DNA of 64,000 bases from Pegea sp. RAD2-039 (lineage: Eukaryota; Chordata; Thaliacea; Salpida; Salpidae): NCBI GenBank assembly GCA_034620365.1, contig JAQGEQ010000343.1:186001-250000 (forward strand), given 5' to 3'. Of the stretch, positions 575 to 62,739 are shown in pieces; position 1 is the first letter of the stretch; every line of letters begins with the position of its first letter. The position numbers and the translations under genes were made by a program. The notes under the pieces are model-generated. The model worked only from the letters and a program-made list of their open reading frames with translations. It was not told the DNA's origin and did not search any database.

Positions 575-595
575 TACACCACAAACACTAAACTA
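575..595 (+). promoter_or_regulatory. PSE-like promoter element of cassette 1 (family representative)
   Basis: Core CACCACAAACACTAAACTA, preserved with few changes in nearly all 34 cassettes. A TATA box (TATATAAA, 605-612) follows after a 9-bp gap. The combination resembles the proximal sequence element plus TATA arrangement of animal snRNA genes (U6-type spacing in flies is about 12 bp). It predicts initiation about 30 nt after the first T of the TATA box, near the start of the variable segment. Confidence 0.65.
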
Positions 596-627
596 ATATA
601 AATCTATATAAAGGAAAATAACAGTGT

Positions 628-684
628 AGAAGTACTCTGCTAATATTTCAAACATTTAATTTCTAGAGTTGAACAAGTTTCAAC
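628..684 (+). ncRNA. U7-like Sm RNA cassette 1
   Basis: Predicted transcribed part: variable segment 628-657 (30 nt), degenerate Sm-like AATTTCTAG 658-666, stem-loop GTTGAACAAGTTTCAAC 668-684. Promoter: PSE 575-595, TATA 605-612. The variable segment is related to those of cassettes 11, 17 and 27. The weakened Sm site suggests a decaying copy. The exact 5' end is an estimate for every cassette. Confidence 0.55.
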
Positions 685-1925
685 AAATTATTTCAATAAT
701 TATTCTAAATTTCTTCTTTAATTCGATAGCAAAGATTATTTGCTGAATCAAACTTTAGTAGTTTTCAATTTGTACCTTTACACAGAACTTTAAAACTTTT
801 AACTGCTTCCAACAACTGACTGAAGTGTTTTAAACATTTTTTCAATCAATGTTTTGTTGATGGTAATCTAGTCAGGGTTTGGTTCATAATATCGGCTCCC
901 TATACAACAACTCCTTTTACTACTAACTGAGGTTTTTTTTGGCGACATTTTAGGTAAACTGATTTAACTCTACTTTACGTCTACTGCTTCGAAACTCAGT
1001 CAGTAAAAAGATGAAGATAAAGACTCACATCCACAAAAGATGCGTTTTTATAATCACTTTCACTTGTATTTGTTGATTTCGGGAGGACAACTCTAGAATG
1101 ATCATCTGAAGATCAAGAAGATCAGATGATGTAGTCTCATCAACAAGTATCTTACATGGAATGATATTTGTCTATCTGTTCTTATCTTTGTTTTGAGGTT
1201 TCTCTCCTTGACTTCGAAGTCCTTTTCCTATTGGTAAACTCTAAACCAATAAATTTAATCTCGAGTCATCTACATCTTTCGGACTCACGCTGAACTCTTC
1301 TCGAAATGGTTTATTGTCATCAGATATTCTTCTAATTTATATTGTAAATAAAACCCAGTTTTTCTTTAAAATGATTTTAAATTTCATCAGTGACTAAAAA
1401 ATTATGAAATTTTTGAGCTAATAATAGAAAGAGATTAAAATGAATATTACGTGGCTTTATTCTTTATTTTTTCAAGAGTTAATTTTATAATTTATTTTAA
1501 ATTGAAGAATTGTTCACGAATCTTTTCATAGTGAATAATCAAGAAATTAATAAACGGAATCTTATTTTCATCTTTTTAATTTAACTTTCAATTTAAATTA
1601 TTTCTATCAAACGCTTTCAACAAAAGCTTTCCGTTTTCTTTCAGGCCTAAAATACACTTCTTTTAATAGCTTCATTCAAAGATTTTAAATAACTTTTATT
1701 TATAGATTCCCTAACATATATAAACGTAAAGCTTCGGTACAGAATTATTTTAAATTAAAGTTCTTCTAACTTAAGTTAAGGTTTTCTTATGATAAAAACT
1801 AATTAATTCGTTTATGTTAAAATAAGTTAAAAATTTAATGATTTTATATAAAATATTTTCCTTTAGAATCAAATAATATGTAATTATCATTAGTAACTTT
1901 CCTGATAACTTTTTTGTTCCAAATT
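685..1925. other. Non-coding stretch upstream of EndoU gene
   Basis: 685-975 is the conserved downstream flank of cassette 1 and includes, inverted, the module carrying the 26-codon MSPTKASVSS-type ORF (about 840-975). 976-1,925 is AT-rich sequence not seen elsewhere in the window. No ORF or RNA gene could be supported. A pyrimidine-rich tract ending in AG at about 1,927-1,928, 24 nt before the EndoU start codon, could be a cis- or trans-splice acceptor. Confidence 0.5.
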
Positions 1926-1951
1926 TAGGTTTTCAAGTTCAGTTGGAAACA

Positions 1952-3881
1952 ATGAAGATATTTCTTGGTGTTTTAATCATTCAGTTTGTGTCCTTTCAAC
2001 AGACTTGGTCAGATTCAGTTCCACTACCAATCACTGGAGAATTGTGGAAAGAATCCCGATTTATAGATAAGTGGGACAGTTGTAAAGATTTTATAAACAA
2101 TCCTAAGTAAGTACTTTTCATTTTTGTGGTTTTCTGGTTTGTTATTTAATTAAGTTGTCTGTCACCGTAGTTTACTGGTCACACGCCCAACTGACCTGCA
2201 GGTCTCGGGCTTAAGCCCAGGACACATATTTGCGACAAGGAAACGTCCATAAAAAACCCGGGTAGAAGGGCCTTGTCAGTCTGGTTAATAAAAACATTTC
2301 TAAGAGACGCAAAACTCCGAATTTAAAACCGGAGTAGGAACCTCGTAGGCAGTTTGTCGCTGTGCTCAGTGTCTTTCCAGAAGCTCCTACGACGCCAGTT
2401 GCATCAGTCCTTCTGTTCCGCTTCACACCTAGATGGCGTAGAGAGTGGAATCCTGCTGCATTGGCAACAACTAGATATTCACTTCTTCTTTTGCTTACAG
2501 CAAAGAAGGCCCATAATATTATTATTATTAAGTTATCTAATATCATTGGTTACATGATTTGAGGACTACTGAAATGTCACGTGTCACATATTTTGCTTTC
2601 TATATTTCTAACTTAATAGATATTATTTGTGAGAATGTGTGTTACCGAGAGGTGCTCTCTTCAGGCACCCTCTTTAACGTTTATTGAAATATATAAATTA
2701 ATTATTAAGTGATATCATCTTAATAATATTTATCTAACTTTGAATGCATAATTATTATTATTGAAACAATAATAAAGTTTAAACAAATAAAATTTGCTGG
2801 TAAAATTTCTAAAATAATTTTTTTCGAACTTCTTTATAGACCATCTAAAGATATTTGGACTGAATTAAAGAAGAGATTATATGATAAAGATTTCCTTGAT
2901 TCTTTTGAAAATCTTTTTAAGGCGTTTGATCAAAACAAACAACCAACAAATTATTTGATTGACGAATTCATGGGTAGATTCCTGAAAACAAAAGTTGGAA
3001 AAAAACTGGAAGTTTACTTGCGGCAAACTTTGGGCAACCAAATAAGTGCTTTACATTCTTACCTTTATGTTTCCTTCTTGACAAATTTATCAAAAAGTTT
3101 GTTTTTAGAAAGTGGGCACGATGCTGTTAGGACTTATATCAAAAAAATTTGGTTTGAACGACATTCAGATAGAACTACAAGTCATAGGTAAATAAATTTG
3201 TATTAATTAAGTTCAAGCGTTAATTTATTATTTCAGTTTTAAGCATGTGTTTTATGGTTCCATTAATACGACCCTGGAAATAGTTAATGGGATGCATAAC
3301 TGGATTCAATTCAATCGATTAAATGGAGAAAAAAATATAACCAACATTAAATTAACTAACAGCAAAGTGAATGGCGCAAAGCATAAAGTAAGTTTTGATA
3401 AACATTTTTGGCTATTAACTATTAATTAGTTTAATTTTTGGTTTATATTGTAATCAAAATAGTTTAATTAATTTAAATGTTTTCAGCCACTTTTGTGCAA
3501 AGTTGATTTCTATTGGAAACAAGCTAAAAAATTATCTGATTCAATTATGGTTGGCCTAGACCCTGCATATGAATTTGCTATTTATACTTATTGTTTTAGC
3601 CATGTGATAAAAAAAGAAGGAACGTAAGTTATTATGTAAAATTATTTATTTGAGAATAATTTTTATACTGTTTTTTAAGTTTATAAATATTTTTTTATAT
3701 TAAAAATGAAGTTTATTACGTTTAATTTTTTGTTATTAACCAAAAGTTAATATCAGTTTTTTTATTTATTAGTTGTGCAGTTACTTTGGAGAAAAAAGTT
3801 GCTATAATCAAAATTATCAAAAAAACATTTAAAAGAAATAAACAAAAAATTAAAAGTGCATTTTTCCTGGAATATGAATGA
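1952..3881 (+). CDS. Secreted EndoU (XendoU/PP11) family endoribonuclease, 5 exons
   Basis: Joined exons 1952-2106, 2840-3187, 3237-3387, 3487-3623 and 3773-3881 give exactly 300 codons (299 residues), all with GT-AG introns. EndoU enzymes are metal-dependent endonucleases cutting at uridines. Residues 1-20 (MKIFLGVLIIQFVSF...) look like a signal peptide, predicting secretion. The C-terminal EndoU core is recognisable: FKHVFYGS with His171, GMHNWIQF with His188, and WKQAKKLSDSIMVG with Lys233, matching the family's two catalytic histidines and lysine and their spacing. PAYEFAIYTYCF (residues 244-255) matches the family segment SPEFEFALYT. The glutamate usual after the first histidine motif (GE) is serine here. 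The ORF closes with IKSAFFLEYE, similar to the family's terminal strand. No Cys-rich somatomedin domain is present. Initiator chosen as the first ATG before the signal peptide. Confidence 0.88.
2157..2527 (+). mobile_element. SINE in EndoU intron 1, (ATT)n tail
   Basis: About 370 bp, far richer in G+C than its surroundings. The head has tRNA-like boxes (GTAGTTTACTGG near 2,168 and GGTCTCGGGCTTAAGCCC near 2,201), a unique body follows, and the tail is repeated ATT. It is flanked by TTAAGTT at 2,150-2,156 and 2,528-2,534, a likely target-site duplication. Short ORFs across it are incidental. Confidence 0.72.
2559..2695 (+). mobile_element. SINE family 2, 3' part, in EndoU intron 1
   Basis: Starts TTGAGGACTACTGAAATG and ends in the family 2 tail (GAGAATGTGTGTTACC ... 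CACCCTC ... TTTATTGAAATA). It lacks the tRNA-like head seen in the full copy at 62.25 kb and has an extra internal stretch shared with the copies at 4.70 and 4.84 kb. Confidence 0.65.
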
Positions 3882-4531
3882 TTATCATTTAAAAATAAAA
3901 TAGCTTGCTAAAGAATTGAGCTTTAATCAAAAGATTAATAAAAAACAATGAAAAATAAATTCTGTTTTTTTTTAGGTTTATTTAGAAATAAGAAGTCAAT
4001 ATTTTGATTTTTCAGAAAGATTAAAAAAATTTCGACGATTAATTAAAATTTAAACATTTTTTTTTGTAGCTTCAATGTCAAAAATAATTAAGAAATATTT
4101 TATTAGAAAGAAATTTTTCATGAAATAATTAAAGTCTTTGAAATAAAAACATTTTTATTAAATAAGTGATATAAAACATCTGAGTGTTTAACGAAGTTTT
4201 CTACTTTATCATAAACTAGATATTTTATTCGTCTTAAAAAATGTTAAAATATCGAAATAACATTTATTGCAACAAATTTATTTATAATTTGATGATGAAT
4301 TAAAACTAAGTTATAATAATTAGATAATAGAACAAGCTTATTAAAGATCTGTTTTGATTACAGATACGAAACAGTCACTGCTTAAACTTTAAACTTCTTA
4401 ATGAATATTTTAAACTTTATTATGTTACAGCCAAAATGCTCGATATAATGTATTTATTTTAACTCTATGGAAAAATACATTAAAAGTTATATCATAAAAT
4501 ACTATATAAACTATTATAGTTTATATATATT
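3882..4531. other. AT-rich intergenic stretch
   Basis: Follows the EndoU stop codon; AATAAA-like signals occur about 3,893-3,897 and 3,940. Nothing else recognisable. Confidence 0.4.
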
Positions 4532-4645: not shown

Positions 4646-4698
4646 TGTGACTTTTTTTTTATTATTAAAATTCTATGTAATTGTTCACTGCTATATGT

Positions 4699-4834
4699 TT
4701 TGAGGACTACTGAAATGCCATGTGTTGCATCTTTTATTTTCTATTTTTTTGACTACATAGATGTTAACTATGAGAATGTGTGTTAGCAAGAGGTACTCTG
4801 TTCAGTTACCCTCCTTCGCATTTATTGAGATAGA
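4699..4834 (+). mobile_element. SINE family 2, 3' part
   Basis: TTGAGGACTACTGAAATG start, AGAATGTGTGTTAGC core and CACCCTCCTTCGC-like end (TACCCTCCTTCGCATTTATT). It follows directly after the LINE fragment, so the two may have arrived together. Confidence 0.65.
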
Positions 4835-4839
4835 TATGC

Positions 4840-4975
4840 TTTGAGGACTACTGAAATGCCATATTTTGCATCTTTTATTTTCTATATTTCTAACTAAATA
4901 GATGTTATTTGTGAGAATGTGTGTTGGCGAGAGGTAATCTCTTCAGGCACCCTCCTTCGCGTTTATTGAAATAGT
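4840..4975 (+). mobile_element. SINE family 2, 3' part, tandem to previous
   Basis: Second head-to-tail copy with the same start and end blocks (GAGAATGTGTGTTGGCGAGA, CACCCTCCTTCGCGTTTATT). The pair gives a local tandem of headless elements. Confidence 0.65.
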
Positions 4976-6073
4976 TAAATAAATATTACAAAATACTATA
5001 TAAACTATTATAGTTTATATATATTCCGTTTAATTTTATAATTTAATTTTATGTAAATCCTCTTATCAGATTAACGTTCTATGCTTTAAAGATTTTAATC
5101 AAAATTAAGCTGTAAAGCTAAAATTGTCAGTTATTTAAATTTAATTCAAGTTTATCTAAAATCGTAAAGCTTTTAATTTTTTTCTATAATATGATTTACC
5201 GTCTACTGCAGATTAATTTTATTGGATCATATTTAAATAATAATTACTAGTCTTTTTTTTGCTTGCTTAAGATTAAAAAAATAATACCAAATTTAATTTA
5301 TAAAAACAATTGAATATCCGTTTGACTTTGAATTTATCTCAAAATTAAATTGGTAACACTTTTTAACGTTCGTATAGCCTAGAAACACTACAAGCCATTC
5401 GGTTAAAATTTGAATAAATAATTTTTATTTTAGAAAATAACTTTTTTTAATAAATTTGCAATAACTAAATTTTATTATATTATTGATTAAATAATATATT
5501 TATTTCTAATTAAGTATATTATTTAATTATTATTATTTACAAAGTTGTTTTGAATTTACTAAATAAAGTAGAAAATAATTTTTTATTTATAATTTTTGTA
5601 ATTAAAATATTTATTTTTTACTTTTCAAAATTATACTTTTTTAATTTGTTTTATATTTAATAAATATTTTGTAATAAATTTTTTCATTCAAAATTAAGTA
5701 TTTTATTTTGTTTCTAAATTTTAAGTTTTAGATTAGATTTATAAATTTTATTTTTTTGCATTTAACTAAATCATTTTTGAAAAAATCTTATTTTTATGAT
5801 TAAATATTAATTTAATTCAATCTTCTAGAATTTAGTTTTATGAGTTTAAATTGATTAATTATTAACTTATTACTTTATAAATTGGTTTTTAAATATTTAT
5901 TTATCATCAAATTTGTGTTTTAAACAGTTAAATAAAAATATAATTCTTAAACAAATTATTTTATTTTTTATAATAATAAATTCAAAACTATTTTTTAAGA
6001 AATAATTTTATACAGTTAACTAAATAATTTCTTTTATTTTTTATAATCAAAATCTATTCTTAAATTATTTTTC
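4976..6073. other. Very AT-rich spacer upstream of Fused
   Basis: Almost pure A/T. A 30-nt stretch before the first headless SINE (about 4,493-4,522) recurs at about 4,988-5,020 (ACTATATAAACTATTATAG). No repeats of the cassette family, ORFs or RNA genes seen. A TTTTTCAG acceptor-like signal ends at 6,074-6,075, upstream of the Fused start codon. Confidence 0.4.
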
Positions 6074-6127
6074 AGATTTATACAACTTGCTCATGTAATG
6101 TAAATTATTTTGATCTTCAAAATCACA

Positions 6128-9647: not shown

Positions 9648-9710
9648 GTTGAAACTTGTTCAACTCCAAAAATTGAAGAATTTACGACATATTAAGTCTG
9701 GATTTCCCAT
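9648..9710 (-). ncRNA. U7-like Sm RNA cassette 2
   Basis: Minus-strand order: PSE 9740-9760, TATA 9723-9730, variable 9710-9675 (36 nt, no close relative in the window), AATTTTTGG 9674-9666, perfect stem-loop 9664-9648. One of the cleanest copies. Confidence 0.65.
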
Positions 9711-10059
9711 GCTGAATTTTTCTTTATATAAATTTCTAGTAGTTTAGTGTTTGTGGTGTAAATTTGCTAATAAATTATTTCTTCACAGAAAATTTTCTGA
9801 ATTAAATTTTGCTAGCTACTGTTTACTTAAACGTTTTTATTTAAATTATCTAAAAATATTTTTATAATAAATTTATGATTTAAAATAATTGAAAAGATGG
9901 GAAGATATCAGAATGATGCAACTTTGAGACAAGTGAATAGAGAGTTTGAAGATAAAATTTATATTATATTATATATTATATTTGAATCTTTAAATTAAGA
10001 GATGTTTATAATCTTAATAAAGGCACTAAACAAATCTAGCAACACATTTACGTAAGCTG

Positions 10060-11456: not shown

Positions 11457-11635
11457 TATATTAAATCATAAATTTGCTATAAAAATATTTTTAGATAATT
11501 TAGATAAAAACTTTTAAGTAAAAAGTAGCTAGCAGAAATCAATTCAGAAAATGTTTTTTGACGAAATAATTTTTTAGCAAATTTACACCACAAACACTAA
11601 ACTAGTAAAACTTATATAAACAAACAAATCATCGT

Positions 11636-11695
11636 TAGATTGTTTATCAGCCACATTGTGAACTTTAAAATTTTTGGAGTTGAACAAGTTTCAAC
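11636..11695 (+). ncRNA. U7-like Sm RNA cassette 3
   Basis: PSE 11584-11604, TATA 11613-11620, variable 11636-11668 (33 nt), AATTTTTGG 11669-11677, perfect stem-loop 11679-11695. Its variable segment is nearly the same as that of cassette 5, its inverted duplicate. Confidence 0.65.
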
Positions 11696-13225: not shown

Positions 13226-13282
13226 GTTAAAACTTGTTCAACTTCAAAAATTATTTAAACATTTCTTTCATTGATAATCAAA
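13226..13282 (-). ncRNA. U7-like Sm RNA cassette 4
   Basis: PSE 13314-13334, TATA-like TATATATA about 13,300-13,309, variable 13282-13253 (30 nt, distant relative of cassettes 8, 12 and 16), AATTTTTGA 13252-13244, stem-loop 13242-13226 with one stem mismatch (GTTAAA for GTTGAA on the plus strand). Confidence 0.58.
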
Positions 13283-13744
13283 CGCTGATTTTTTCCTTTA
13301 TATATATATCTAGTAGTTTAGTGTTTGTGGTGTAGATTTTTTAATAAATTAATTCGTCAGAAAAAAATTTCTGTTTGAGTATTGTAAGGTAGTTAAATAC
13401 TTAGTAAACGTTTATAACTTTATATTACCTTTATAATATAATCAAAAGTTGTCAAGTTGAAGTCATGACATCATATTAACTAATAAAGTTGAAGATTTAA
13501 AAGCAAATTTAACCTATTAACATTAATCTTGCCTCTAATATTGAACATTTTCAATCTAAAAATAGATAAAACGATGAGATGTTTCAACTATACATCAAAA
13601 GTGTATTTCACCGCATACGTAAATGTGATACTAAATTATTATAATGCACTTCTTAATACTCCAAAAACTCTTGATTTAACGATTCAAATATAATTTTATC
13701 CTCTTAGAAAATATAACTTAAAAGCTTAAAATTATATTTTTTAG

Positions 13745-14124: not shown

Positions 14125-14184
14125 GTTGAAACTTGTTCAACTGCAAAAATTTTGAAGTTGACAATGTGGTTGATAAGCAATTTT
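14125..14184 (-). ncRNA. U7-like Sm RNA cassette 5
   Basis: PSE 14216-14236, TATA degenerate (TTAAATAA near 14,201), variable 14184-14152 (33 nt, shared with cassette 3), AATTTTTGC 14151-14143, perfect stem-loop 14141-14125. Confidence 0.58.
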
Positions 14185-14371
14185 ACGATGATTTGTTTGT
14201 TTAAATAAGTTTTACTAATTTAGTGTTTGTGGTGTAAATTTGCTAAAAAATTATTTCGTAAAAAAAGTTATCTGAATTGATTTCTGCTAGCTACTTTTTA
14301 CTTAAACGTTTTTATCTAAATTATCTAAAAATATTATTATCATAAATTTATGATTTAATATAATTGAAGAG

Positions 14372-15776: not shown

Positions 15777-16117
15777 GTTGCTTGATTTTTATATTACTAT
15801 TCTTAATACTCTTAATATCTCTTGGTTTAAAGATTCAAAAATAATTTTATCTTCTTGGTATTTGATCTTTTAACTCTCTAACTGCTTGTCTCAAAGTTGC
15901 ATCATTCTGATATTTTCCCATCTCTTATCCATTTATATTATATAAGATATTTGCTAAAAAAAATGGCATTTAGATAATTTAGATAAAAACTGTTAAGTAA
16001 AAAATAGCTAACACGAGAAAATTTCAGAGAAAATTTTTTTGACGAAATAATTTATTAGCAAACTTATACTACAAACACTAAACTAATCGAAATTTATATA
16101 AAGAAACAAATCAGCTT

Positions 16118-16176
16118 AAAAGTTGAATTATTTTAGGCTGCTTTAAATCACTTTTTAGAGTTGAACAAGTTTCAAC
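16118..16176 (+). ncRNA. U7-like Sm RNA cassette 6
   Basis: PSE 16065-16085 (TATACTACA variant), TATA 16095-16102, variable 16118-16149 (32 nt, related to cassette 15), Sm-like ACTTTTTAG 16150-16158 (first A pair changed), perfect stem-loop 16160-16176. Confidence 0.58.
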
Positions 16177-16944: not shown

Positions 16945-16953
16945 TGTCCTGTG

Positions 16954-19338: not shown

Positions 19339-19405
19339 GTTGAAACTTGTTCAACTCCAAAAATTAGAAATCATATTTTCAATAAAGTATTTCTTAAACA
19401 ATTCT
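19339..19405 (-). ncRNA. U7-like Sm RNA cassette 7
   Basis: TATA 19422-19429, variable 19405-19366 (40 nt, related to cassettes 20, 25 and 28), AATTTTTGG 19365-19357, perfect stem-loop 19355-19339. The PSE (19437-19454) is cut short: GTGGCTAATAA shows loss of the TGTAAATTT part, so the promoter may be dead. Confidence 0.52.
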
Positions 19406-19731
19406 ACGCTGATTTTTCACTTTATATAAATTTCGATTAGTTTAGTATTTGTGGCTAATAAATTATTTCGTAAAAAAATTTTCTGAATTGATTGCTGTTA
19501 GCTACTTTTTACTTAAATATTTTTATTTAAATTATCTAAAAATATTTTGTTAGTAAAATAATGATTTAGTATATCTGAAAAGATGAGAAAATATCAAAAT
19601 GATGCGACTTTGAGACAAGTGGTTAGAGATTTTAAAGATTAAAATAACAAGATGATAAAATTATATTTGAATCGTTAAATCAAGAGATTTGTATAGTATT
19701 AAGAAATGCATTATAATAATTTAGTATCACA

Positions 19732-19748: not shown

Positions 19749-20075
19749 ATACACTTCTGACATGTAGTTCAAACAACACAGCTTTTCATCTACTCTTAGA
19801 TTGAAAATGTTCAATCTAAAAGACAAGATTAATGTTAATCGGTTAAATTTGCTTTTAAATCTTCATCTTTATTATTTAATATGATGTCATGACTTCGACT
19901 TGACAACTTTTGATCATATTATAAAGGTCATTTAAAGTTATAAAAATTTACTAAGTATTTAACTACCTTACATACTCTCGAACGGAAATTTTTTTCTGAC
20001 GAATTAATTCATTAGGAAATATACACCACAAACGCTAAACTACTAGATATATATATAATGGAAAATAATCAGCGT

Positions 20076-20132
20076 TTGAATATCTATAAAAACATATAAA
20101 TCGTTAATTTTTGGAGTTGAACAAGTTTCAAG
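20076..20132 (+). ncRNA. U7-like Sm RNA cassette 8
   Basis: PSE 20022-20042 (one change, AACGCTAAAC), TATA-like TATATATATAAT ending 20,059, variable 20076-20105 (30 nt, same lineage as 12 and 16), AATTTTTGG 20106-20114, stem-loop 20116-20132 with the last C changed to G. Confidence 0.6.
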
Positions 20133-22815: not shown

Positions 22816-22872
22816 GTTGAAACTTATTCAACTCCAAAAATTAAATTGTTTGAAAAATTCTAAAACACCGTT
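22816..22872 (-). ncRNA. U7-like Sm RNA cassette 9, degraded
   Basis: PSE 22905-22925 with GTTTTGTA for GTGGTGTA, TATA-like TTTATAAAG near 22,888, variable 22872-22843 (30 nt), AATTTTTGG 22842-22834, stem-loop 22832-22816 with one loop change. Probably inactive. Confidence 0.5.
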
Positions 22873-23079
22873 ACACAGATTTGTTCCTTTATAAAGATTT
22901 CTATTAGTTTAGTGTTTGTTTTGTAAATTTGTTAATAAATTATTTCGTCAAAAAAAATTTTCTGAATTTACAATTGATAGAATTGAATGGATAACCTTAT
23001 ATTTGAATCTTTAAATAATGAGATGTTTATATTATAAAGAAAGGCACTATAAAAACTTAGCAACAAATTTACCTATGCG

Positions 23080-24357: not shown

Positions 24358-24546
24358 CTCTTCAATTATATTAAATCATAAATTTATTACAAAAATATTT
24401 TTAGATAATTTAGATAAAAACGTTTAAGTAAAAAAGTAGCTAGCAGAAATCAATTCAGAAAATTTTTTTTGACGAAATAATTTTTTAGCAAATTTACACC
24501 ACAAACACTAAACTAGTAAAACTTATATAAATAGACAAATCGGCGT

Positions 24547-24606
24547 AAAAATGTTCAAGGAATATAATGTACCATTCATAATTTTTGGAGTTGAACAAGT
24601 TTCAAC
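24547..24606 (+). ncRNA. U7-like Sm RNA cassette 10
   Basis: PSE 24495-24515, TATA 24524-24531, variable 24547-24579 (33 nt; its 3' end TTCAT matches cassette 22 but the rest differs), AATTTTTGG 24580-24588, perfect stem-loop 24590-24606. Confidence 0.66.
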
Positions 24607-25138: not shown

Positions 25139-25196
25139 GTTGAAACTTATTCCACTTCTAAAATTAAATGTTTGAAATTATAGTATGGTACTTTAA
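25139..25196 (-). ncRNA. U7-like Sm RNA cassette 11, degraded
   Basis: PSE 25228-25248 (GTATTTGTGG), TATA-like TTTATAAA 25213-25220, variable about 25196-25166, Sm-like AATTTTAG 25165-25158, stem-loop 25155-25139 with a broken pair (TTCCAC). Same variable segment as cassette 17. Confidence 0.5.
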
Positions 25197-25384
25197 AGCA
25201 GATATTTTCTAATTTATAAACTTCGATTAGTTTAGTATTTGTGGTGTAAATTTGCTAATAAATTATTTCGTCAAAAAAAATTTTCTGAATTGATTGCTGT
25301 TAGCTACTTTTGACTTAAAAGTTTTTATTTAAATTATCTAAAAATAATTTTTTAGTAAATAGATGATTTAATATAATTGAAAAG

Positions 25385-25550: not shown

Positions 25551-25877
25551 ATACACATTTGATGTGCAGTTCAAACAACACAGCTTTTCATCTATTCTTA
25601 GATTGAAAATGTTCAATCTAAAAGACAAGATTAATATTAATAGGTTAAATTTGCTTTTAAATCTTCATCTTTATTAGTTAATATGATGTCATGACTTCGA
25701 CTTGACAACTTTTGATCATATTATAATGGTCATATAAAGTTATAAACATTTACTAAGTATTTAACTACCTTACATGCTCTCAAACGGAAATTTTTTTTCT
25801 GATAATTTAATTCATTAGAAAATATACACCACAAACACTAAACTACTAGATATATATATAATGGAAAAACTCAGCGT

Positions 25878-25934
25878 TTGAATATCTACATAAACAAATA
25901 ATTTGTTAATTTTTGGAGTTGAACAAGTTTCAAC
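25878..25934 (+). ncRNA. U7-like Sm RNA cassette 12
   Basis: PSE 25825-25845, TATA-like TATATATATA from 25,851, variable 25878-25907 (30 nt, same lineage as 8 and 16), AATTTTTGG 25908-25916, perfect stem-loop 25918-25934. Confidence 0.64.
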
Positions 25935-29099: not shown

Positions 29100-29155
29100 G
29101 TTGAAACAAATTCACCTTAAAAAATTAACTTTTAGAGAAGTGATAAAGATGTTTT
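29100..29155 (-). ncRNA. U7-like Sm RNA cassette 13, degraded
   Basis: PSE 29188-29208, TATA changed to TTTATGTAAA, variable 29155-29127 (29 nt, related to 21 and 23), Sm-like AATTTTTTAA 29126-29117, stem-loop 29116-29100 weakened (GGTGAATTTGTTTCAAC on the minus strand). Confidence 0.48.
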
Positions 29156-29341
29156 ACGCTGATTTGTTTGTTTATGTAAATTTCGATTAGTTTAGTGTTT
29201 GTGGTGTAGATTTGCTAATAAATTATTTCGTCAAAATATTTTCTGAATTGACTCCTGTTAGCTACTTTTGACTTTAAAATTTTATTTAAATTATCTAAAT
29301 ATATTTTTTTAGCAAATTTATGATTTAATATAATTGAAGAG

Positions 29342-31677: not shown

Positions 31678-31866
31678 TTCTTCAATTATATTAAATCATA
31701 AATTTGCTAAAAAAATCTTATTTAATTAATTTAGATAAAAATTTTATGTAAAAAGTAGCTAACAGGAGTCAACTCAGAAAATATTTTGACGAAATAATTT
31801 ATTAGCAAATCTTCACCACAAACAATAAACTAATCGAAATTTATATAGACTAAAAAAAATCAGCAT

Positions 31867-31928
31867 AAAAGATTTTAATTATTTTATTATTTCACTTTGT
31901 ATATTTTTGCAGTTGAACAAGTCTCAAC
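31867..31928 (+). ncRNA. U7-like Sm RNA cassette 14
   Basis: PSE 31812-31832 (TTCACC...AACAATAAAC, two changes), TATA-like TATATAGA 31842-31849, variable 31867-31902 (36 nt), Sm-like TATTTTTGC about 31,902-31,910, stem-loop 31912-31928 with one changed base (GTCTC). Confidence 0.52.
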
Positions 31929-32926: not shown

Positions 32927-33267
32927 TGTGTTGCTAAATTACTTTAGTTCTTTTCTTAATACTATAAACATCTCTTGATTTAAAGATTCAAATATAAATT
33001 TATCTTCTTGTTATTTGATCTTCAAACTCTCTAACCTCTTGTCTCAAAGTTGCAACATTCTGATATTTTCCCATCTCTTCAATTATATTAGATCATATAT
33101 ATGCTAACAAAATGTTATTTAGATAATTTAGATAAAACCTTTTAAGTAAAAAATAGCTAACAGGAGAAAATTTCAGAGAAAATTTTTTTTGACGAAATAA
33201 TTTATTAGCAAACTGACACCACAAAAACTAAACTAATCGAAATTTATATAAGGAAACAAATCAGTTT

Positions 33268-33326
33268 AAAAGTTGATCTAATTTAAGCTCCAGTAAACTA
33301 ATTTTTAGAGTTGAACAAGTTTCAAC
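33268..33326 (+). ncRNA. U7-like Sm RNA cassette 15
   Basis: PSE 33215-33235 (GACACC...AAAAACTAAAC), TATA 33245-33252, variable 33268-33299 (32 nt, related to cassette 6), AATTTTTAG 33300-33308, perfect stem-loop 33310-33326. Confidence 0.6.
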
Positions 33327-37743: not shown

Positions 37744-37800
37744 GTTGAAACTTGTTCAACTCCAAAAATTAACAAATTATTAGTTTTTGTAGATACTCAA
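37744..37800 (-). ncRNA. U7-like Sm RNA cassette 16
   Basis: PSE 37833-37853, TATA-like TATATATATA about 37,819-37,828, variable 37800-37771 (30 nt, same lineage as 8 and 12), AATTTTTGG 37770-37762, perfect stem-loop 37760-37744. Confidence 0.64.
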
Positions 37801-38484
37801 ACGCTGATTTTTTCCATTATATATATATCTAGTAGTTTAGTGTTTGTGGTGTATATTTGCTAATGAATTAAATTATCAGAAAAAAAATTTCCGTTTGAGA
37901 GCATGTAAGGTAGTTAAATACTTAGTAAATGTTTATAACTTTATATGACCACTATAATATGATCAAAAGTTGTCAAGTCGAAGTCATGACATCATATTAA
38001 CTAATAAAGATGAAGATTTAAAAGCAAATTTAACCTATTAACATTAATCTTGTCTTTTAGATTGAACATTTTCAATCTAAGAATAGATGAAAAGCTGTGT
38101 TGTTTGAACTGCACATCAAATGTGTATCATACCGCATACGTAAATGTGTTGCTAAATTATTATAATGCACTTCTTAATACTAAAAATATCTCTTGATTTA
38201 ACGATTCAAAAATAATTTTATCATCTTGTTATTTTGATCTTCAAACTCTCTAACCACTTGTCTCAAAGACGCATCATTTTGATATATTCGCATCTTTTCA
38301 ATTATATTAAATCATCTATTTACTAAAAAAATATTTTTAGATAATTTTAATAAAAACTTTTAAGTCAAAAGTAGCTAACAGCAATCAATTCAGAAAATTT
38401 TTTTTTACGAAATAATTTATTAGCAAATTTACACCACAAATACTAAACTAATAGAAATTTATAAAATAGAAAATATCTGCTTTA

Positions 38485-38539
38485 AAGTACCATACTATTA
38501 TTTCAAACATTTAATTTTAGAAGTGGAATAAGTTTCAAC
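38485..38539 (+). ncRNA. U7-like Sm RNA cassette 17, degraded
   Basis: PSE 38430-38450 (one change), TATA-like TTTATAAAAT, variable 38485-38512, Sm-like AATTTTAG 38513-38520, stem-loop 38523-38539 damaged (GTGGAATAAGTTTCAAC). Inverted partner of cassette 11 with the same defects. Confidence 0.5.
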
Positions 38540-40438: not shown

Positions 40439-40493
40439 GTTGAAACTTGTTCAATCTCAAAATTTAATTGAAAAAATCTTGAATAAAACCTTT
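40439..40493 (-). ncRNA. U7-like Sm RNA cassette 18
   Basis: PSE 40526-40546, TATA-like CTATAAAA, variable 40493-40465 (29 nt, related to cassette 34), Sm-like AATTTTGA 40464-40457, stem-loop 40455-40439 with terminal base changed. Confidence 0.56.
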
Positions 40494-40621
40494 ACGCAGA
40501 TTTTTTTATTCTATAAAAATTCTAGTAGTTTAGTGTTTGTGGTGTAGATTTGCTAATAGATTTCATCAAAAAAATAAATAAAAATAAGCTGTGTTGTTTG
40601 AATTGCATATCAGAAGTGCAT

Positions 40622-40638: not shown

Positions 40639-40981
40639 TGTGTTGCTAAATTATTATAGTGTCCTTCTTAATACTATAAACATCTCTTGATTTAAAGATT
40701 CAAATATAATTTTATCTTCATGTTATTTAGATCTTCAAGCTCTCTAACCGCTTGTCTCAAAGTTGCTTCATCTTGCTATTTTCCAATCTTTTATCCATTT
40801 ATATTATATCAAATATTTTCTGAAAAAATAGTATTTAGATAATTTAAATAAAAACTTTTATGTAAAAAGTAGCTAACAGGAGTCAATTCAGAAAATATTT
40901 TTATAACGAAATGATTTATTAGCAAATTTATACCGCAAACACTAAACTAATAGAAATTTATATAAAGGAACAAATCAGCGT

Positions 40982-41041
40982 AAAATTGTAATTCATATGA
41001 GTAGCTATTACTATAATTTTTAGAGTTGAACAAGTTTCAAC
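40982..41041 (+). ncRNA. U7-like Sm RNA cassette 19
   Basis: PSE 40929-40949 (TATACCGCA), TATA 40959-40966, variable 40982-41014 (33 nt, one difference from cassette 33), AATTTTTAG 41015-41023, perfect stem-loop 41025-41041. Confidence 0.64.
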
Positions 41042-43807: not shown

Positions 43808-43869
43808 GTTGAAACTTGTTCAACTCCAAAAATTTGAAAACATATCTGAACATATAAAGTATTTCTTGT
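43808..43869 (-). ncRNA. U7-like Sm RNA cassette 20
   Basis: PSE 43902-43922 (GTTTATGGTGTG, two changes), TATA about 43,886-43,893, variable 43869-43835 (35 nt, related to 7 and 31), AATTTTTGG 43834-43826, perfect stem-loop 43824-43808. Confidence 0.6.
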
Positions 43870-44201
43870 ACGCTGATTTTTCACTTTATATAAATTTCGA
43901 TTAGTTTAGTGTTTATGGTGTGAATTTCCTAATAAATTATTTTGTTATAAAAAAAATTCTGTGTAAACTCCTTTTAGCTGCTTTTTACATAAAAGTTTTT
44001 ATTTAAATTATCTAAATTTAATTTTTCTAGAAAATATTTGATATAATATAAATGGATAAGAGATGGGAAAATAGGAAGATGATGCAGCTTTGAGACAAGT
44101 GGTTAGAGAGTTTGAAGATCAAAATAAAAAGAAGATAAAATTATATTTGAATCTTTAAATCAAGAGATGTTTATAGTATTAATATTATAAGTATTAATAA
44201 A

Positions 44202-44245: not shown

Positions 44246-44522
44246 ATTCAAATATAATTTTATCATCTTGTTATCTTGATCTTCAAACTCTCTAACCACT
44301 TGTCTCAAAGTTGCATCATTCTGATATTTTCCCATCTCATCTATTATATTACGTCATAAATTTGCTAAAAAAATATATTTAAATAATTTAGATAAAAACA
44401 TTTAAAAAAAAAGTAGCTAACAGCAATCAATTAAGAAAATATTTTGACGAAATAATATATCAGCAAATCTACACCACAAACACTAAACTAATCGATATTA
44501 ATATAAGGAAACAAATCAGCGT

Positions 44523-44579
44523 GAAATCATCTACTTTATTTCTCTAAGGTTTAATTTTTAGAGTTGAATAAGATTCAAC
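44523..44579 (+). ncRNA. U7-like Sm RNA cassette 21
   Basis: PSE 44470-44490, TATA-like TAATATAA about 44,499-44,506, variable 44523-44552 (30 nt, related to 13), AATTTTTAG 44553-44561, stem-loop 44563-44579 (GTTGAATAAGATTCAAC: one extra loop-edge change, stem kept). Confidence 0.62.
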
Positions 44580-47899: not shown

Positions 47900-47959
47900 G
47901 TTGAAACTTGTTCAACTCCAAAAATTATGAACTGTATAATACAAATGTAGAACAATTTT
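47900..47959 (-). ncRNA. U7-like Sm RNA cassette 22
   Basis: PSE 47991-48011 (one change, TAGCGTTTG), TATA-like CTATATATAAAA about 47,974-47,985, variable 47959-47927 (33 nt), AATTTTTGG 47926-47918, perfect stem-loop 47916-47900. Confidence 0.63.
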
Positions 47960-48290
47960 ACGATGATTTGTTGCTATATATAAAATTTACTAGTTTAGCG
48001 TTTGTGGTGTAAATTTGCTAGAAAATTATTTAGTCAAAAAAATTTTCTGAATTGATTTCTGCTAGCTACTTTTACTTAAACGTTTTTATCTAAATTATCT
48101 AAAAATATTTTTATATTAAATTTATGATTTAATATAATTGAAGAGAAGAAAATATCAGAATGATGCAACTTTGAGACAAGTGGTTAGAAAGTTTGAAGAT
48201 CAAAATAACAAGATGATAAAATTATATTTGAATCTTTAAATCAAGAGATTTATATTTATAAGAAGATTATTAAAATAATTTAGCAACACA

Positions 48291-49402: not shown

Positions 49403-49742
49403 TGTGTTGCTAGATTTGTTTAGTGCCTTTATTAAGATTATAAACATCTCTCAATTTAAAGATTCAAATATAATATATAATATAATATAAATTTTATCTT
49501 CAAACTCTCTATTCACTTGTCTCAAAGTTGCACATTCTGATATTTTCCTATCTCTTCTATTCTATTAAGTAAGAAAATTGATTAAAAAATCTTATTTAGA
49601 TTATTCAAATAAAAACTTTAAAGTCAAAAGTAGCTAACAGGAGTCAATTCAGAAAATATTTTTATGACGAAATAATTTATTAGCAATTGTACACCACAAA
49701 CACTAAACTAATAGAATTTTTTATAAAGAAACAAATCAGCGT

Positions 49743-49799
49743 AAAAGCGTCTTCATCACTTGGACGTGTTGTTATTTTTAGAGTTGAATACATTTCAAC
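49743..49799 (+). ncRNA. U7-like Sm RNA cassette 23
   Basis: PSE 49690-49710, TATA-like TTTATAAAG, variable 49743-49772 (30 nt), Sm-like TATTTTTAG 49773-49781, stem-loop 49783-49799 (GTTGAATACATTTCAAC). Partner of cassette 30, but about half of the variable segment differs. Confidence 0.57.
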
Positions 49800-50030
49800 A
49801 GACTATTTCAATTATTAAATCAAAAGTAACTTTTTCTGTTTAAAATAAAACATTTATTAGTTTTTAATTTGTGTCTGTTGATATTTAGATGACTTATATA
49901 GAAACTTTAAAGAGAAACGTATCTAATTGAAAGAAATTCAGAAAATTTTCCTTTGACCAACTAATTTATTAGCAATTTTACACAAGAAGCACTAAACTAC
50001 TAGAAATTTATATAAAGTAAAACGTCAGCG

Positions 50031-50090
50031 ACTTAAGCGATCAAAAAATATATAAATTTTATTAATTTTTGGAGTTGAACAAGTTTCAAC
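50031..50090 (+). ncRNA. U7-like Sm RNA cassette 24
   Basis: PSE 49979-49999 (TACACAAGAAGCACTAAAC, three changes), TATA 50009-50016, variable 50031-50063 (33 nt, like cassette 29), AATTTTTGG 50064-50072, perfect stem-loop 50074-50090. Only about 230 bp after cassette 23. Confidence 0.6.
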
Positions 50091-50810: not shown

Positions 50811-50876
50811 GTTGAAACTTGTTCAACTCTAAAATTTAGAAGTATTTAATGGTTTTTTATAGTATTTCTTCATTTT
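50811..50876 (-). ncRNA. U7-like Sm RNA cassette 25
   Basis: PSE 50909-50929, TATA-like TTTATACAA, variable 50876-50837 (40 nt, related to 28), Sm-like AATTTTAG 50836-50829, perfect stem-loop 50827-50811. Confidence 0.57.
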
Positions 50877-51190
50877 ATGCTGATTTTTCACTTTATACAA
50901 ATTTCTAGTAGTTTAGTGTTTGTGGTGTAGATTTGCTAATAAATTATTTCGTCATAAAATAATTTTCTGAATTGACTCTTGTTAGCTACTTTTTACTAGT
51001 TTTTACATAAAAGTTTTTATTTAAGTCATCTAAATATAATTTTTTCAGAAAATATATGATTTTACTTAATTGAAGAGAGGGAAAAAAATCGAAATGATGC
51101 GACTTTGAGACAAGTGGTTAGAGCGTTTGAAGATCAAAATAACAAGAAGATAAAATTATATTTGAATCTTTAAATCAAGAGATTTTTATA

Positions 51191-52111: not shown

Positions 52112-52347
52112 CTTTTTTTTCACAATTTTTTTTCAGCTTTTTATAATACTAGAAAAATGATTTCTTCAATTATATTAAATCATAAATTTGCAACAAAAAT
52201 ATATTTAGATAATTCAAATAAAAACTTTTAAGAAAAAAGTAGCTAAAAGAAGTCATTACAGAAAAATTTTTTGACGACATTTTATTATCAAATTCACACC
52301 ACAAACACTAAACTAATAGAAATTTATATAAAGAAACAAATCAGTGT

Positions 52348-52403
52348 ACAATTGATTTTGAAATTGTACAATTTTAAATTTTTGTAGTTGAACAAGTTTC
52401 AAC
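52348..52403 (+). ncRNA. U7-like Sm RNA cassette 26
   Basis: PSE 52295-52315, TATA 52325-52332, variable 52348-52376 (29 nt, related to 32), AATTTTTGT 52377-52385, perfect stem-loop 52387-52403. The variable part can fold on itself (TTGATTTT...AAATTGTACAATT). Confidence 0.6.
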
Positions 52404-53631: not shown

Positions 53632-53688
53632 GTTGAAACTTGTTCAACTACAAAAATTTAATGTTTGAAAATTTGACAGGGTACTTTT
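53632..53688 (-). ncRNA. U7-like Sm RNA cassette 27
   Basis: PSE 53721-53741 (first base C), TATA-like TTTATATAA about 53,704-53,712, variable 53688-53659 (30 nt, lineage of 1, 11, 17), Sm-like AATTTTTGT, stem-loop 53648-53632 perfect. Confidence 0.6.
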
Positions 53689-53954
53689 ACGCAAATATTT
53701 TCATTTATATAATTTTCTATCAGTTTAGTGTTTGTGGTGTAAATTTGCTAATAAATTATTTTGTTATAAAAATATTTTCTGAATTGACTCCTGTTAGCGA
53801 CAAAGAGATATTTATATTATTTAGAGAGGCACTGTGAGAATTTAGCAACACATTTATGTATCTGGTAAAATACACTTCTGATGCGGTAAAATTTTACTAG
53901 ATTTAGCCTCCAGCTTCACTACATGTTCGTCAAACAAAAAACTGACGTAGCTGA

Positions 53955-54629: not shown

Positions 54630-54651
54630 AAAAAAAATTGTGAAAAAAAAG

Positions 54652-54723
54652 TTCCCAGACCGGGAATCGAACCCGGGCCGCGTGGGTGAGAGCCACGAAT
54701 CCTAACCACTAGACCACCTGGGA
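54652..54723 (-). tRNA. tRNA-Glu(CTC), best preserved copy
   Basis: 72-nt intact cloverleaf: TCCCAGG/TCTGGGA, D-arm TGGTCTAGTGGTTAGG, anticodon CTC in GTGGCTCTCACCCAC, T-arm CCGGGTTCGATTCCCGG. It lies 23 nt upstream of RAD54 exon A on the same strand, so it once sat in a RAD54 intron. Confidence 0.95.
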
Positions 54724-55109: not shown

Positions 55110-55475
55110 TGTGTTGCTAAATTATTATAGTGCGTTTATTAATACTATAAACATCTCTTGATTTAAAAGTTCAAATAAAATTTTTTTCTTCATGTTATTT
55201 TGATCTGTAAACTCTCTAACCACTTGTCTCAAAGTCGCATCATTTCGATTTTTTTCCCTCTCTTCAATTATGTAAAATCATATATATTCTGAAAAAATTA
55301 TATTTAAATGACTTAAATAAAAACTTTTATGTAAAAACTAGTAAAAAGTAGCTAAGTAAAAAGTAGCTAACAGGAGTCAATTCAGAAAATTATTTTATGA
55401 CGAAATAATTTATTAGCAAATCTACACCACAAACACTAAACTAATAGAAATTTATATAAAGTGAAAAATCAGCGT

Positions 55476-55543
55476 AAAAATGTATAAATGCTATAGAAAA
55501 ACACTAAACAGGTTCTAATTTTTAGAGTTGAACAAGTTTCAAC
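55476..55543 (+). ncRNA. U7-like Sm RNA cassette 28
   Basis: PSE 55423-55443, TATA 55453-55460, variable 55476-55516 (41 nt), AATTTTTAG 55517-55525, perfect stem-loop 55527-55543. Mirror partner of cassette 25 with a diverged variable segment. Confidence 0.63.
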
Positions 55544-56262: not shown

Positions 56263-56322
56263 GTTGAAACTTGTTTAACTCCAAAATTTAAGAAAATTTA
56301 TATATTTATTGATTGCTTAAGT
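56263..56322 (-). ncRNA. U7-like Sm RNA cassette 29
   Basis: PSE 56354-56374 (GTGCTTGTAG, two changes), TATA about 56,339-56,346, variable 56322-56289 (34 nt, like 24), Sm-like AATTTTGG 56288-56281, stem-loop 56279-56263 with one weakened pair. Confidence 0.56.
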
Positions 56323-56554
56323 CGCTGACGTTTTACTTTATATAAATTTCTAGTAGTTTAGTGCTTGTAGTGTAAAATTGCTAATAAATTAGTTGGTCAA
56401 AGGAAAATTTTCTGAATTTCCTTCAATTAGATACGTTTCTCTTTAAAGTTTCTATTTAAGTCATCTAAATATCAAAAGACACAAATTAAAAACTAATAAA
56501 TTTTTTATTTCAAAACAGAAAAAGATACTTTCGATTTAATAATTGAAATAGTCT

Positions 56555-56610
56555 GTTGAATCGTAATTAACTCTAAAAATAACAATTTATGCAATGATGA
56601 AGACACTTTT
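56555..56610 (-). ncRNA. U7-like Sm RNA cassette 30, degraded
   Basis: PSE 56643-56663, TATA-like TTTATACAAAA, variable 56610-56582 (29 nt), TATTTTTAG 56581-56573, stem-loop 56571-56555 damaged (GTTAATTACGATTCAAC). Confidence 0.5.
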
Positions 56611-56947
56611 ACGCTGATTTGTTTCTTTATACAAAATTCTATTAGTTTAGTGTTTGTGGTGTAGAATTGCTAATAAATTATTTTGTCAAAATATTTTCTG
56701 AATTGACTCCTGTTAGCTACTTTTGACTTTAAAGTTTTTATTTAAATAATCTAAATAAGATTTTTTAAGCAATTTTCTTACTTAATAAAATAGAAGAGAT
56801 AGGAAAATATCAGAATGTGCAACTTTGAGACAAGTGAATAGAGAGTTTGAAGATAAAATTTATATTATATTATATATTATATTTGAATCTTTAAATTGAG
56901 AGATGTTTATAATCTTAAAAAAGGCGTTAAACAAATGTAGCAACACA

Positions 56948-58171: not shown

Positions 58172-58508
58172 TGTGTAGCTGAATTATTTTAGTGCCATTC
58201 TTATAAAAATAAATCTCTTGATTTAAAGTTTCAAATATAATTTTATCTTCTTGTTATTTTGATCTTCAAACTCTCTAACTGCTTGTCTCAAAGTTGCATC
58301 ATCTTCCTAATTTCGCAGTTCTTATCCATTTATATTGTATCAAATATTTTCTAAAAAAATGGTATTTAGATAATTCAGATAAAAACTTTTATGTAAAAAG
58401 TAGCTAACAGGAGTCAACTCAGAAAATTTTTTACGAAATAATTTATAAGCAAATTTACACCACAAACACTAAACTAATCGAAATTTATATAAACTGAAAA
58501 ATCAGCTT

Positions 58509-58578
58509 GAAAATGTTCAAGAAATCCTTCATATGTGCAAATATGTTTGCTAGATTTTGGAGTTGAACAAGTTTCAAC
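58509..58578 (+). ncRNA. U7-like Sm RNA cassette 31
   Basis: PSE 58456-58476, TATA 58486-58493, variable 58509-58552 (44 nt, longest; related to 20), Sm-like GATTTTGG 58553-58560, perfect stem-loop 58562-58578. Confidence 0.58.
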
Positions 58579-60150: not shown

Positions 60151-60484
60151 TGTGTTGCTAAATTATTATAGTGGGTTTATTAATACTATAAACATCGCTT
60201 GATTTAAAGATTCAAATTTAATTGTATCTTCTTTTTATTTTGATCTTCAAACTCTGTAACCGCTTGTCTCAAAGTTGCATCATTCCGATATTTTTCCATC
60301 TTTTCAATTATATTAAATCATATATTTGCAAAAAAATGTATTTAAATAATTTAAATAAAAACTTTTATGTAAAAAGTAGCTAAAAGAAGTCATTACAGAA
60401 AAATTCTTTGACGACAATTTATTAGCAAATTCACACCACAAACACTAAACTACAAGAAATTTATATAAAACAACAAATCAGTGT

Positions 60485-60544
60485 ACAATTTATTTTGAAT
60501 TTGGCAAAACGTCTTTTAATTTTTGGAGTTGAACAAGTTTCAAC
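60485..60544 (+). ncRNA. U7-like Sm RNA cassette 32
   Basis: PSE 60432-60452, TATA 60462-60469, variable 60485-60517 (33 nt, related to 26 at the 5' end only), AATTTTTGG 60518-60526, perfect stem-loop 60528-60544. Confidence 0.66.
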
Positions 60545-61925: not shown

Positions 61926-61985
61926 GTTGAAACTTGTTCAACTCTAAAAATTATAGTAATAGCTACTCATATGAAATACAATTTT
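61926..61985 (-). ncRNA. U7-like Sm RNA cassette 33
   Basis: PSE 62018-62038 (GTTTGCGGTATA), TATA 62001-62009, variable 61985-61953 (33 nt, one difference from cassette 19), AATTTTTAG 61952-61944, perfect stem-loop 61942-61926. Confidence 0.64.
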
Positions 61986-62245
61986 ACGCTGATTTGTTCC
62001 TTTATATAAATTTCTATTAGTTTAGTGTTTGCGGTATAAATTTGCTAATAAATCATTTCGTTATAAAAATATTTTCTGAATTGACTCCTGTTAGCTACTT
62101 TTTACATAAAAGTTTTTATTTAAATTATCTAAATACCATTTTTTTTAGCAAATATTTGATATAATATAAATGGATAAGAGATGGGAAAATATCAGAATGA
62201 TGCAACTTTGAGACAAGCGGTTAGAGAGTTTGAAGATCTAAATAA

Positions 62246-62456
62246 CATGTCCTGCTTGGTGGCGAAGCGGTTACTACACCTAGCTACAAGGTACATCTAG
62301 CTTGGAAGTACCGGGTTCGACCCCAGGTGGAGACATATAAAACTCCTGAGAAATAAAAAAAAACCATAAAAAAACTACTGAGAATGTGTGTTAGTGAGAT
62401 GTGCTCTCTTTAGTCACCCTCCTTCGCATTTATATATATAAAATAAAATAAAAACA
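62246..62456 (+). mobile_element. SINE family 2, full length with tRNA-like head
   Basis: Head with A box (TGGTGGCGAAGCGG) and B box (GGGTTCGACCCC), body AAACTCCTGAGAAA and GAGAATGTGTGTTAGTGAGA, end CACCCTCCTTCGCATTTA with a (TA)n and AAAT tail. AACATG flanks both sides. It interrupts the micro-ORF that starts at about 62,178 after codon 22. Confidence 0.78.
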
Positions 62457-62538
62457 TGAAGATAAAATTTTATTTGAATCTTTAAATCAAGAGATGTTTA
62501 TAGTATTAAGAAGGACGCTATAATAATTTAGCAAAACA

Positions 62539-62555
62539 TTTACGTATGCGGTAAA
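62539..62555. repeat. Junction 17-mer, perfect
   Basis: TTTACGTATGCGGTAAA; mirror of 40,622 in the 40.4-41.9 / 61.0-62.8 kb inverted duplication. Confidence 0.65.
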
Positions 62556-62684
62556 ATACACTTCTGATATGCAGTTCGAACAACACAATTTATTTTTATT
62601 TATTTTTTTGATGAAAATCTATTAGCAAATCTACACCACAAACACTAAACTAGTAGAAATTTTTATAAACTAAAAAATCTGCGT

Positions 62685-62739
62685 AAAGATATTATTGGAG
62701 ATTTTTTCAATTAAATTTTGAGATTGAACAAGTTTCAAC
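62685..62739 (+). ncRNA. U7-like Sm RNA cassette 34
   Basis: PSE 62632-62652, TATA-like TTATAAA, variable 62685-62713 (29 nt, 3' half like cassette 18), Sm-like AATTTTGAG 62714-62722, stem-loop 62723-62739 with first base changed. Confidence 0.56.

Follow-up and report, generated by a model that had tools for sequence, protein, structure and literature searches.

A stretch of 64,000 nucleotides (positions 186001-250000 of contig C247 in a 105.7 Mb assembly of 387 contigs, hereafter the window) carries 34 short cassettes that most likely belong to a diversifying family of Sm-class RNA genes unlike any animal family found among the literature matches listed. Each would encode a small RNA with a variable 5′ arm, an Sm-type site and a 3′ hairpin, behind a promoter of the small nuclear RNA (snRNA) type. 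The original prediction for this DNA had described a 34-member family of U7-like guide RNA genes, 18 on the plus and 16 on the minus strand. Its observation is confirmed, as all 34 cassettes are real and span 577-62739 (first 577-684, last 62634-62739), while its interpretation is partly supported: the sequence bears out the Sm-class plan, the snRNA-type promoter and the 5′ arms as the diversifying part.

The usual order within a cassette is a proximal sequence element (PSE; consensus CACCACAAACACTAAACTA), 9 nt, a TATATAA-like box, an ATCAGCG-like patch, a variable stretch, AATTTTTGG or AATTTTTAG, one base, and the hairpin GTTGAACAAGTTTCAAC. Searching the window for the Sm site plus hairpin with up to five mismatches returned 32 of the 34 cassettes. 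The remaining two (at 29206 and 56661, both minus) have more altered tails and were recovered via the PSE. One further PSE-like site, at 34901 on the minus strand with four mismatches, has no cassette behind it. In 32 window copies the Sm position is occupied by the pattern [AG]T4-6[AG], and in 24 the TATA box keeps its modal offset. A common hairpin, as first described, holds for the 21 copies with exactly GTTGAACAAGTTTCAAC but not for the other 13, whose hairpin is changed. The cassettes are as follows.

577..684, plus strand: cassette 1, PSE-TATA-arm-Sm-hairpin; Sm run broken (AATTTCTAG)
9648..9758, minus strand: cassette 2
11586..11695, plus strand: cassette 3
13226..13332, minus strand: cassette 4; one hairpin change, G-U pair
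14125..14234, minus strand: cassette 5
16067..16176, plus strand: cassette 6; Sm position reads ACTTTTTAG
19339..19456, minus strand: cassette 7
20024..20132, plus strand: cassette 8; final hairpin base changed
22816..22923, minus strand: cassette 9; loop-side change in hairpin
24497..24606, plus strand: cassette 10
25139..25246, minus strand: cassette 11; hairpin altered
25827..25934, plus strand: cassette 12
29100..29206, minus strand: cassette 13; hairpin altered, located via PSE
31814..31928, plus strand: cassette 14; single hairpin change
33217..33326, plus strand: cassette 15
37744..37851, minus strand: cassette 16
38432..38539, plus strand: cassette 17; hairpin altered
40439..40544, minus strand: cassette 18; first hairpin base changed
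40931..41041, plus strand: cassette 19
43808..43920, minus strand: cassette 20
44472..44579, plus strand: cassette 21; hairpin form with seventh pair (T-A)
47900..48009, minus strand: cassette 22
49692..49799, plus strand: cassette 23; loop variant of hairpin
49981..50090, plus strand: cassette 24
50811..50927, minus strand: cassette 25
52297..52403, plus strand: cassette 26
53632..53739, minus strand: cassette 27
55425..55543, plus strand: cassette 28
56263..56372, minus strand: cassette 29; single hairpin change
56555..56661, minus strand: cassette 30; hairpin altered, located via PSE
58458..58578, plus strand: cassette 31; longest arm in the window, 38 nt
60434..60544, plus strand: cassette 32
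61926..62036, minus strand: cassette 33
62634..62739, plus strand: cassette 34; first hairpin base changed

The same elements recur throughout the genome. The exact PSE occurs 130 times versus none for the reversed pattern, and the hairpin with at most one mismatch 302 times versus four for its control; the recurrence is therefore not due to chance. Among the 100 PSE matches listed, 86 lie on C102 and 14 on C247. The first 100 hairpin places listed, all exact, fall on C23 (7), C92 (40), C96 (2) and C102 (51), and the pattern TTTTGAR plus hairpin was found at 76 places (C23 3, C92 38, C96 1, C102 6, C134 9, C200 2, C211 1, C225 13, C237 1, C283 2). That is, the hairpin is present on at least nine contigs besides C102 and C247. 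For quantitative work we used 134 copies, namely the 34 of the window and 100 from C102:1-200000, out of 139 PSE-like sites in these two regions of C247 and C102. Five sites, one of them in the window, were dropped because they had no tail by the rule used; at least one of the dropped sites, C102:75174, is a visibly disrupted cassette. The 9-nt gap after the PSE is kept in 105 of the 134 copies.

We also read 14 copies away from C102 and C247 (ten on C92, three on C23, one on C96), those on C92 and C23 having been picked for a T-run plus hairpin. These C92 and C23 copies combine other PSE variants (CTCACAAACCTTAGATT and similar; CCACAAACAACAG and similar) and dissimilar arms with a T-run and the same hairpin, and the C96 copy has a C92-type tail without a clear PSE. 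Outside C102 and C247, PSE variants were seen in the C92 and C23 copies read, the remaining contigs being known from tail matches. In six C92-family copies (L052, L054, L055, L065, L066 and L068) the predicted RNA has a palindromic hairpin at its very start, ACCTGAAATTCAGGT or a variant of it; in some of the variants the changes preserve pairing. The end of this hairpin resembles, by eye, a CAG/GTG donor. This hairpin is absent by fold from L053 and L067, and L056 and L069 form another sub-type.

The cluster itself is a duplication mosaic, whose top duplications share 86-98% identity. Window positions 1-4396 and 4835-8449 match C102:149853-158143 at 98.5 and 97.9% identity, the second segment also matches C102:2773-6390 at 98.3%, and the other 22 of the 25 best window matches lie at 90.8-96.3%. 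C102 and C247 may be neighbours, duplicates or diverged haplotypes.

The family shares its PSE with the snRNA genes of the genome. The element CCACAAACACTAAACT is identical in four of the eight U6 genes read and at most one base off in 9 of 15 U2 rows, and it is 2-4 bases away in the U1 and U5 genes (two each). The U6 and U2 genes carry CCACAAACACTAA(A/G)CT or near forms; those of U1 and U5 are more distant. Measured from CCACAAAC, the TATA box of 131 of the 134 family copies lies at +25 to +29. The same range holds for each of the 18 distinct U1, U2 and U5 genes measured (14 U2, two U1, two U5; L019 and L023 count as one U2 gene, and a further U2 copy, 10 nt away from the end of a contig, is left out), whereas the box lies at +32 to +34 in all eight U6 genes. 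RNA starts lie at +55 to +58 in the 18 U1/U2/U5 genes and at +63 to +64 in the eight U6 genes, the 5′ ends having been placed by likeness to known snRNA ends. By its spacing, the family promoter is of the RNA polymerase II (Pol II) type of U1, U2 and U5 and not of the Pol III type of U6. Since the TATA spacing matches the U1/U2/U5 rule, transcription should be by Pol II and start about 29 nt past the TATA box, and the T-run need not be a Pol III terminator. Pol III transcription ending at the T-run was rejected on the distance between PSE and TATA box. The snRNA genes occur in mixed U2/U5/U6 clusters at C32:1.26-1.28M and C39:0.92-0.94M, with U1 genes about 0.08-0.1 Mb off on the same contigs.

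From this geometry, the arm is predicted to measure 23-28 nt in 94 of the 134 copies and 23-49 nt overall. The non-conserved segment of 29-44 nt given in the original prediction is indeed variable, but as an arm its length is revised to 23-38 nt in the window. The predicted RNA, composed of the arm, the Sm-type site and a 17-nt hairpin at which it ends, comes to 49-75 nt (median 54), in agreement with the 50-65 nt proposed earlier.

At the 3′ end, [AG]T4-6[AG] is present in 122 of the 134 copies and the consensus hairpin in 82, and the hairpin takes 22 forms altogether. The six stem pairs are possible in 107 copies, including 25 of the 52 that depart from the consensus, and a seventh pair, which the consensus does not allow, is possible in 18 copies (10 forms). 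The hairpin is conserved as a sequence and likely also as a structure.

Rates of change were compared between paralogues. With 300 bp of flank on each side, 905 pairs of the 134 copies had at most 10% flank gaps, and from these we took 57 disjoint pairs, ranked by flank divergence and using each copy once (flank mismatch 0.3-15.6%). Rates are differences per site, with gaps counted for the arm (last 25 nt) and the flanks (120 nt on either side), and take no account of recombination between copies; the pairs have ancestry in common. The arm differs at 0.186 per site and the flanks at 0.063, so that the 25 nt ahead of the Sm site change about three times faster than their surroundings (arm above flank in 44 of 57 pairs, Wilcoxon p = 1.5e-7). 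Below the flanks lie the PSE (0.025, p = 3.5e-6), the hairpin (0.029, p = 1.9e-4) and the Sm site plus hairpin (0.043, p = 0.004). In 5-nt bins, the fast block occupies -25 to -1 before ATTTTTGG at 0.15-0.17, versus 0.025-0.083 in the flanks, and ends sharply, the first Sm bin being at 0.056. Among 386 non-independent pairs with 0.3-10% flank divergence, the block reaches 0.19-0.22 and the shoulder on its promoter side 0.06-0.12. The block agrees with the arm obtained independently from promoter geometry.

The 134 copies hold 107 different arms, which fall into 34 classes at 70% identity. Arm change is bimodal: among the 180 pairs in which each flank reaches 93% identity or more, arms are at least 90% identical in 88, 70-90% in 76 and below 70% in 16. 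Where identity is lost, sometimes only the 3′ part of the arm is affected and sometimes the whole cassette is exchanged.

We consider the best explanation, at about even chances, to be that the arms are diversifying guides on Pol II-made Sm-class RNAs. Each cassette would be a small snRNA-type gene with SNAPc on the PSE and TBP on the TATA box, giving a capped RNA whose U-rich site would take an Sm ring and whose 17-nt element GUUGAACAAGUUUCAAC would form or mark the 3′ end. The arm of about 25 nt would then be free to contact other nucleic acid, and might act as a guide pairing with fast-changing RNA targets. Copies would multiply and rearrange through segmental duplication, with promoter and 3′ tail kept fairly constant. 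The arm would diversify more quickly than the duplicated DNA around it, through point changes, indels and replacement.

Several results weigh against this explanation. The original prediction had the arms vary and possibly pair with targets; the variability stands, but no pairing emerged from the comparisons made. A genome search with two arms (of the 34 classes) at up to three mismatches gave 6 hits for one and 10 for the other, against 1 and 0 in the controls, with no match outside C102 and C247, which leaves these two without a long near-perfect target in this search. By duplex energies, one arm per class paired with the spliced leader (SL) RNA, U2, U6 and two histone 3′ regions (from 68 stem-loop hits) no better than shuffles did. 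If the arms guide, pairing is short or imperfect, or the targets lie outside the assembly. In fold predictions the arms are unpaired to no greater extent than shuffled arms. Folded by itself, the hairpin is weak, with a stem probability that averages 0.35 and exceeds 0.5 in 10 of 34 classes. The Sm pattern is missing from 12 of the 134 copies and one of the six stem pairs is broken in 27, so some copies are probably dead. Slower change of the Sm/hairpin block than of its flanks, which had been put forward as a check, was found for the hairpin and for both parts together, but the Sm decamer alone (0.074) is not below its flanks (0.041-0.057). Furthermore, 13 of 57 pairs have an arm that changes no faster than the flank, many close pairs have an unchanged arm, and the fast block has a promoter-side shoulder of 0.07-0.11 from -55 to -26.

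The first of two main rivals, unlikely in our view, is that the cassettes are non-functional, decaying snRNA-promoter repeats spread by segmental duplication, the fast arm reflecting either recombination or a neutral mutation hotspot linked to transcription. The duplication mosaic fits this, as do the broken Sm sites and hairpins of some copies, a transition/transversion ratio in the arms (0.78) that resembles that of the flanks (0.82), and pairs with similar flanks in which the whole cassette differs. Also in line with it, the closest copy by arm is not the closest by flank in 13 of 134 copies, and arms are less than 70% identical in 64 of the 70 pairs that resemble each other on just one flank. 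However, arms are not widely shuffled, since just one of 7510 pairs with both flanks below 85% has a common arm at 90%. Decay also sits poorly with a PSE and hairpin that change more slowly than the flanks, with a fast block that stops at the Sm site, and with a tail that stays the same on C92 and C23 although the PSE variants ahead of it differ.

The second main rival, which we rate slightly lower still, is a system like the 21U-RNAs of nematodes, in which snRNA-type promoters drive precursors, the arm of about 25 nt is excised and loaded onto Piwi, and the Sm-like run and hairpin are a mere 3′ end signal. We know of no Sm site or 3′ hairpin at 21U-RNA loci. Those loci form clusters with snRNA-derived promoters and precursors of about 28 nt, at more than 15,000 places (PMC6436959, PMC7917550), and the family described here resembles them in its clustered units, snRNA-type promoter and short hypervariable 5′ segment, mostly of 23-28 nt. 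Yet of all transcribed parts it is the hairpin, downstream of the arm, that changes most slowly, which is odd for a discarded tail, and neither of the two arms searched pointed to a transposon target at up to three mismatches.

We regard it as improbable that the family is an SmY-like accessory of spliced-leader trans-splicing, an Sm ribonucleoprotein (RNP) joining the SL RNP and pre-mRNAs. SmY is a small Sm-bound RNA outside the spliceosome that has a conserved first stem-loop and is encoded by twelve genes in C. elegans (PMC11229312). The likeness lies in a small multi-gene RNA family of Sm type, and the present genome does have an SL array. In contrast to SmY, the family is found in a chordate, has hundreds of copies and a hypervariable arm, and its Sm binding is predicted. 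Two stem-loops around the Sm site with the first conserved were not found, the arms folding no better than shuffled ones, although some C92 copies come closer; nor do the arms show excess pairing to SL RNA.

Just as improbable is that GTTGAACAAGTTTCAAC works as DNA, as a protein site or 3′ box, and that the Sm-like run is incidental. The element is a near-palindrome conserved in loop and stem alike, and the weak predicted hairpin and the rate of the Sm decamer are in line with this. However, a T-run stands directly ahead of the hairpin in all three families read, and both the six pairs kept in non-consensus copies and the seventh pair gained in others argue for an RNA hairpin.

Multi-leader SL RNAs or a multi-copy U7 are very improbable, even though short Sm-type RNAs occur in tunicates, where SL RNA genes have many copies and the Ciona SL RNA measures 46 nt with an Sm motif (PMC7986045). 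The SL exon and donor are constant there; the family has neither, with GTAAG, GTGAG or GTATG in only three of 134 arms, and the genome's SL genes form an array elsewhere. We exclude SL RNA on account of this separate array, whose one unit read lacks the family tail, and the lack of a constant 5′ exon and GT donor. U7 snRNA has a 3′ hairpin. It is about 60 nt long and serves histone pre-mRNA through a 5′ region of about 15 nt that pairs with the target and an Sm site, AAUUUGUCU, that ends in CU (PMC7026596). The predicted size, 5′ arm, Sm-type site and likely 3′ hairpin of the family follow this plan, but where U7 has a histone-directed arm and AAUUUGUCU, the family has a spliceosomal-type site and 34 arm classes. 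None of the 134 tails has the U7-type CU end, and on its Sm type U7 in the strict sense is rejected. With the Rfam model RF00066, 16 weak matches came up over the genome, all below cut-off and all outside C102 and C247, the highest scoring 23.1 bits (C284); such models are, however, known to miss tunicate U7 (PMC8704543).

A partial parallel exists in herpesvirus saimiri, whose HSUR RNAs are of the Sm class, function through base-pairing and work with microRNAs and mRNAs (PMC6763288); action by base-pairing would be shared by the family, but HSURs are viral. In keeping with the original prediction, no comparable animal family was found by titles and abstract openings among the literature matches listed, drawn mostly from outside subscription journals, and the parts of a tunicate snRNA paper that bear on the question hold nothing on such a family (PMC13326754).

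Other features of the DNA identify its host. A frame at 6104-8491 (plus) encodes an STK36-like kinase, 795 amino acids uninterrupted and ending about 500 short of its closest relatives, and its DNA resembles C102:2773-6390 (98.3%) and C102:154531-158143 (97.9%). Its best relatives are tunicates (three sequences at 60-62%, Ciona intestinalis at 53%, then Styela and Clavelina). In a tree of 19 sequences it groups with the three closest, in a clade with Ciona and Clavelina and apart from Styela. Exact copies of the Ciona spliced leader number 272 in the genome, versus none for the reversed control. Judged by these kinase relatives and the leader, the source is a tunicate with a Ciona-type SL. Dictyostelium Class I RNA was rejected as a candidate because the STK36 homologues and tree point to tunicates. 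Among the 100 matches listed, the leader forms a tandem array of units of about 199 bp at C4:1135044-1142217. The one unit read (L070) runs from SL-GTAAGT into a different inverted repeat without the family tail, and has no evident PSE within 74 nt upstream. Many scattered SL copies lie elsewhere, some closely paired, among the matches listed.

An Rfam scan of the window returned ten transfer RNA (tRNA) genes only, comprising three Ile-Asp pairs, one Asp and three Glu (196-268, 16870-17025, 31355-31427, 34021-34176, 41733-41888, 52040-52112 and 54651-54723), which sit in the same duplication mosaic as the cassettes. A fragment at 54072-54509 (minus) matches Helicase_C and appears RAD54-like by eye. 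Tandem repeats lie at 51073-51663 (214 bp, 2.8 copies) and 4693-4974 (141 bp, two copies).

Sm-class RNAs are known as machines of few, conserved forms (U1-U7, SL, SmY). We tentatively suggest, as a possibility short of an even chance, that tunicates of this lineage run an expandable, fast-evolving guide repertoire based on snRNPs, in which hundreds of Sm RNPs would share a constant chassis and carry diversifying 5′ guides. This would be RNA-guided recognition of a kind not known in animals, perhaps directed against transposon or pre-mRNA targets. If this is true, nematode PIWI-interacting RNA loci, with their origin in snRNA promoters, would have a counterpart in a chordate, and RNA-guided recognition would gain a new design, a fixed snRNP chassis whose 5′ end changes faster than what surrounds it.

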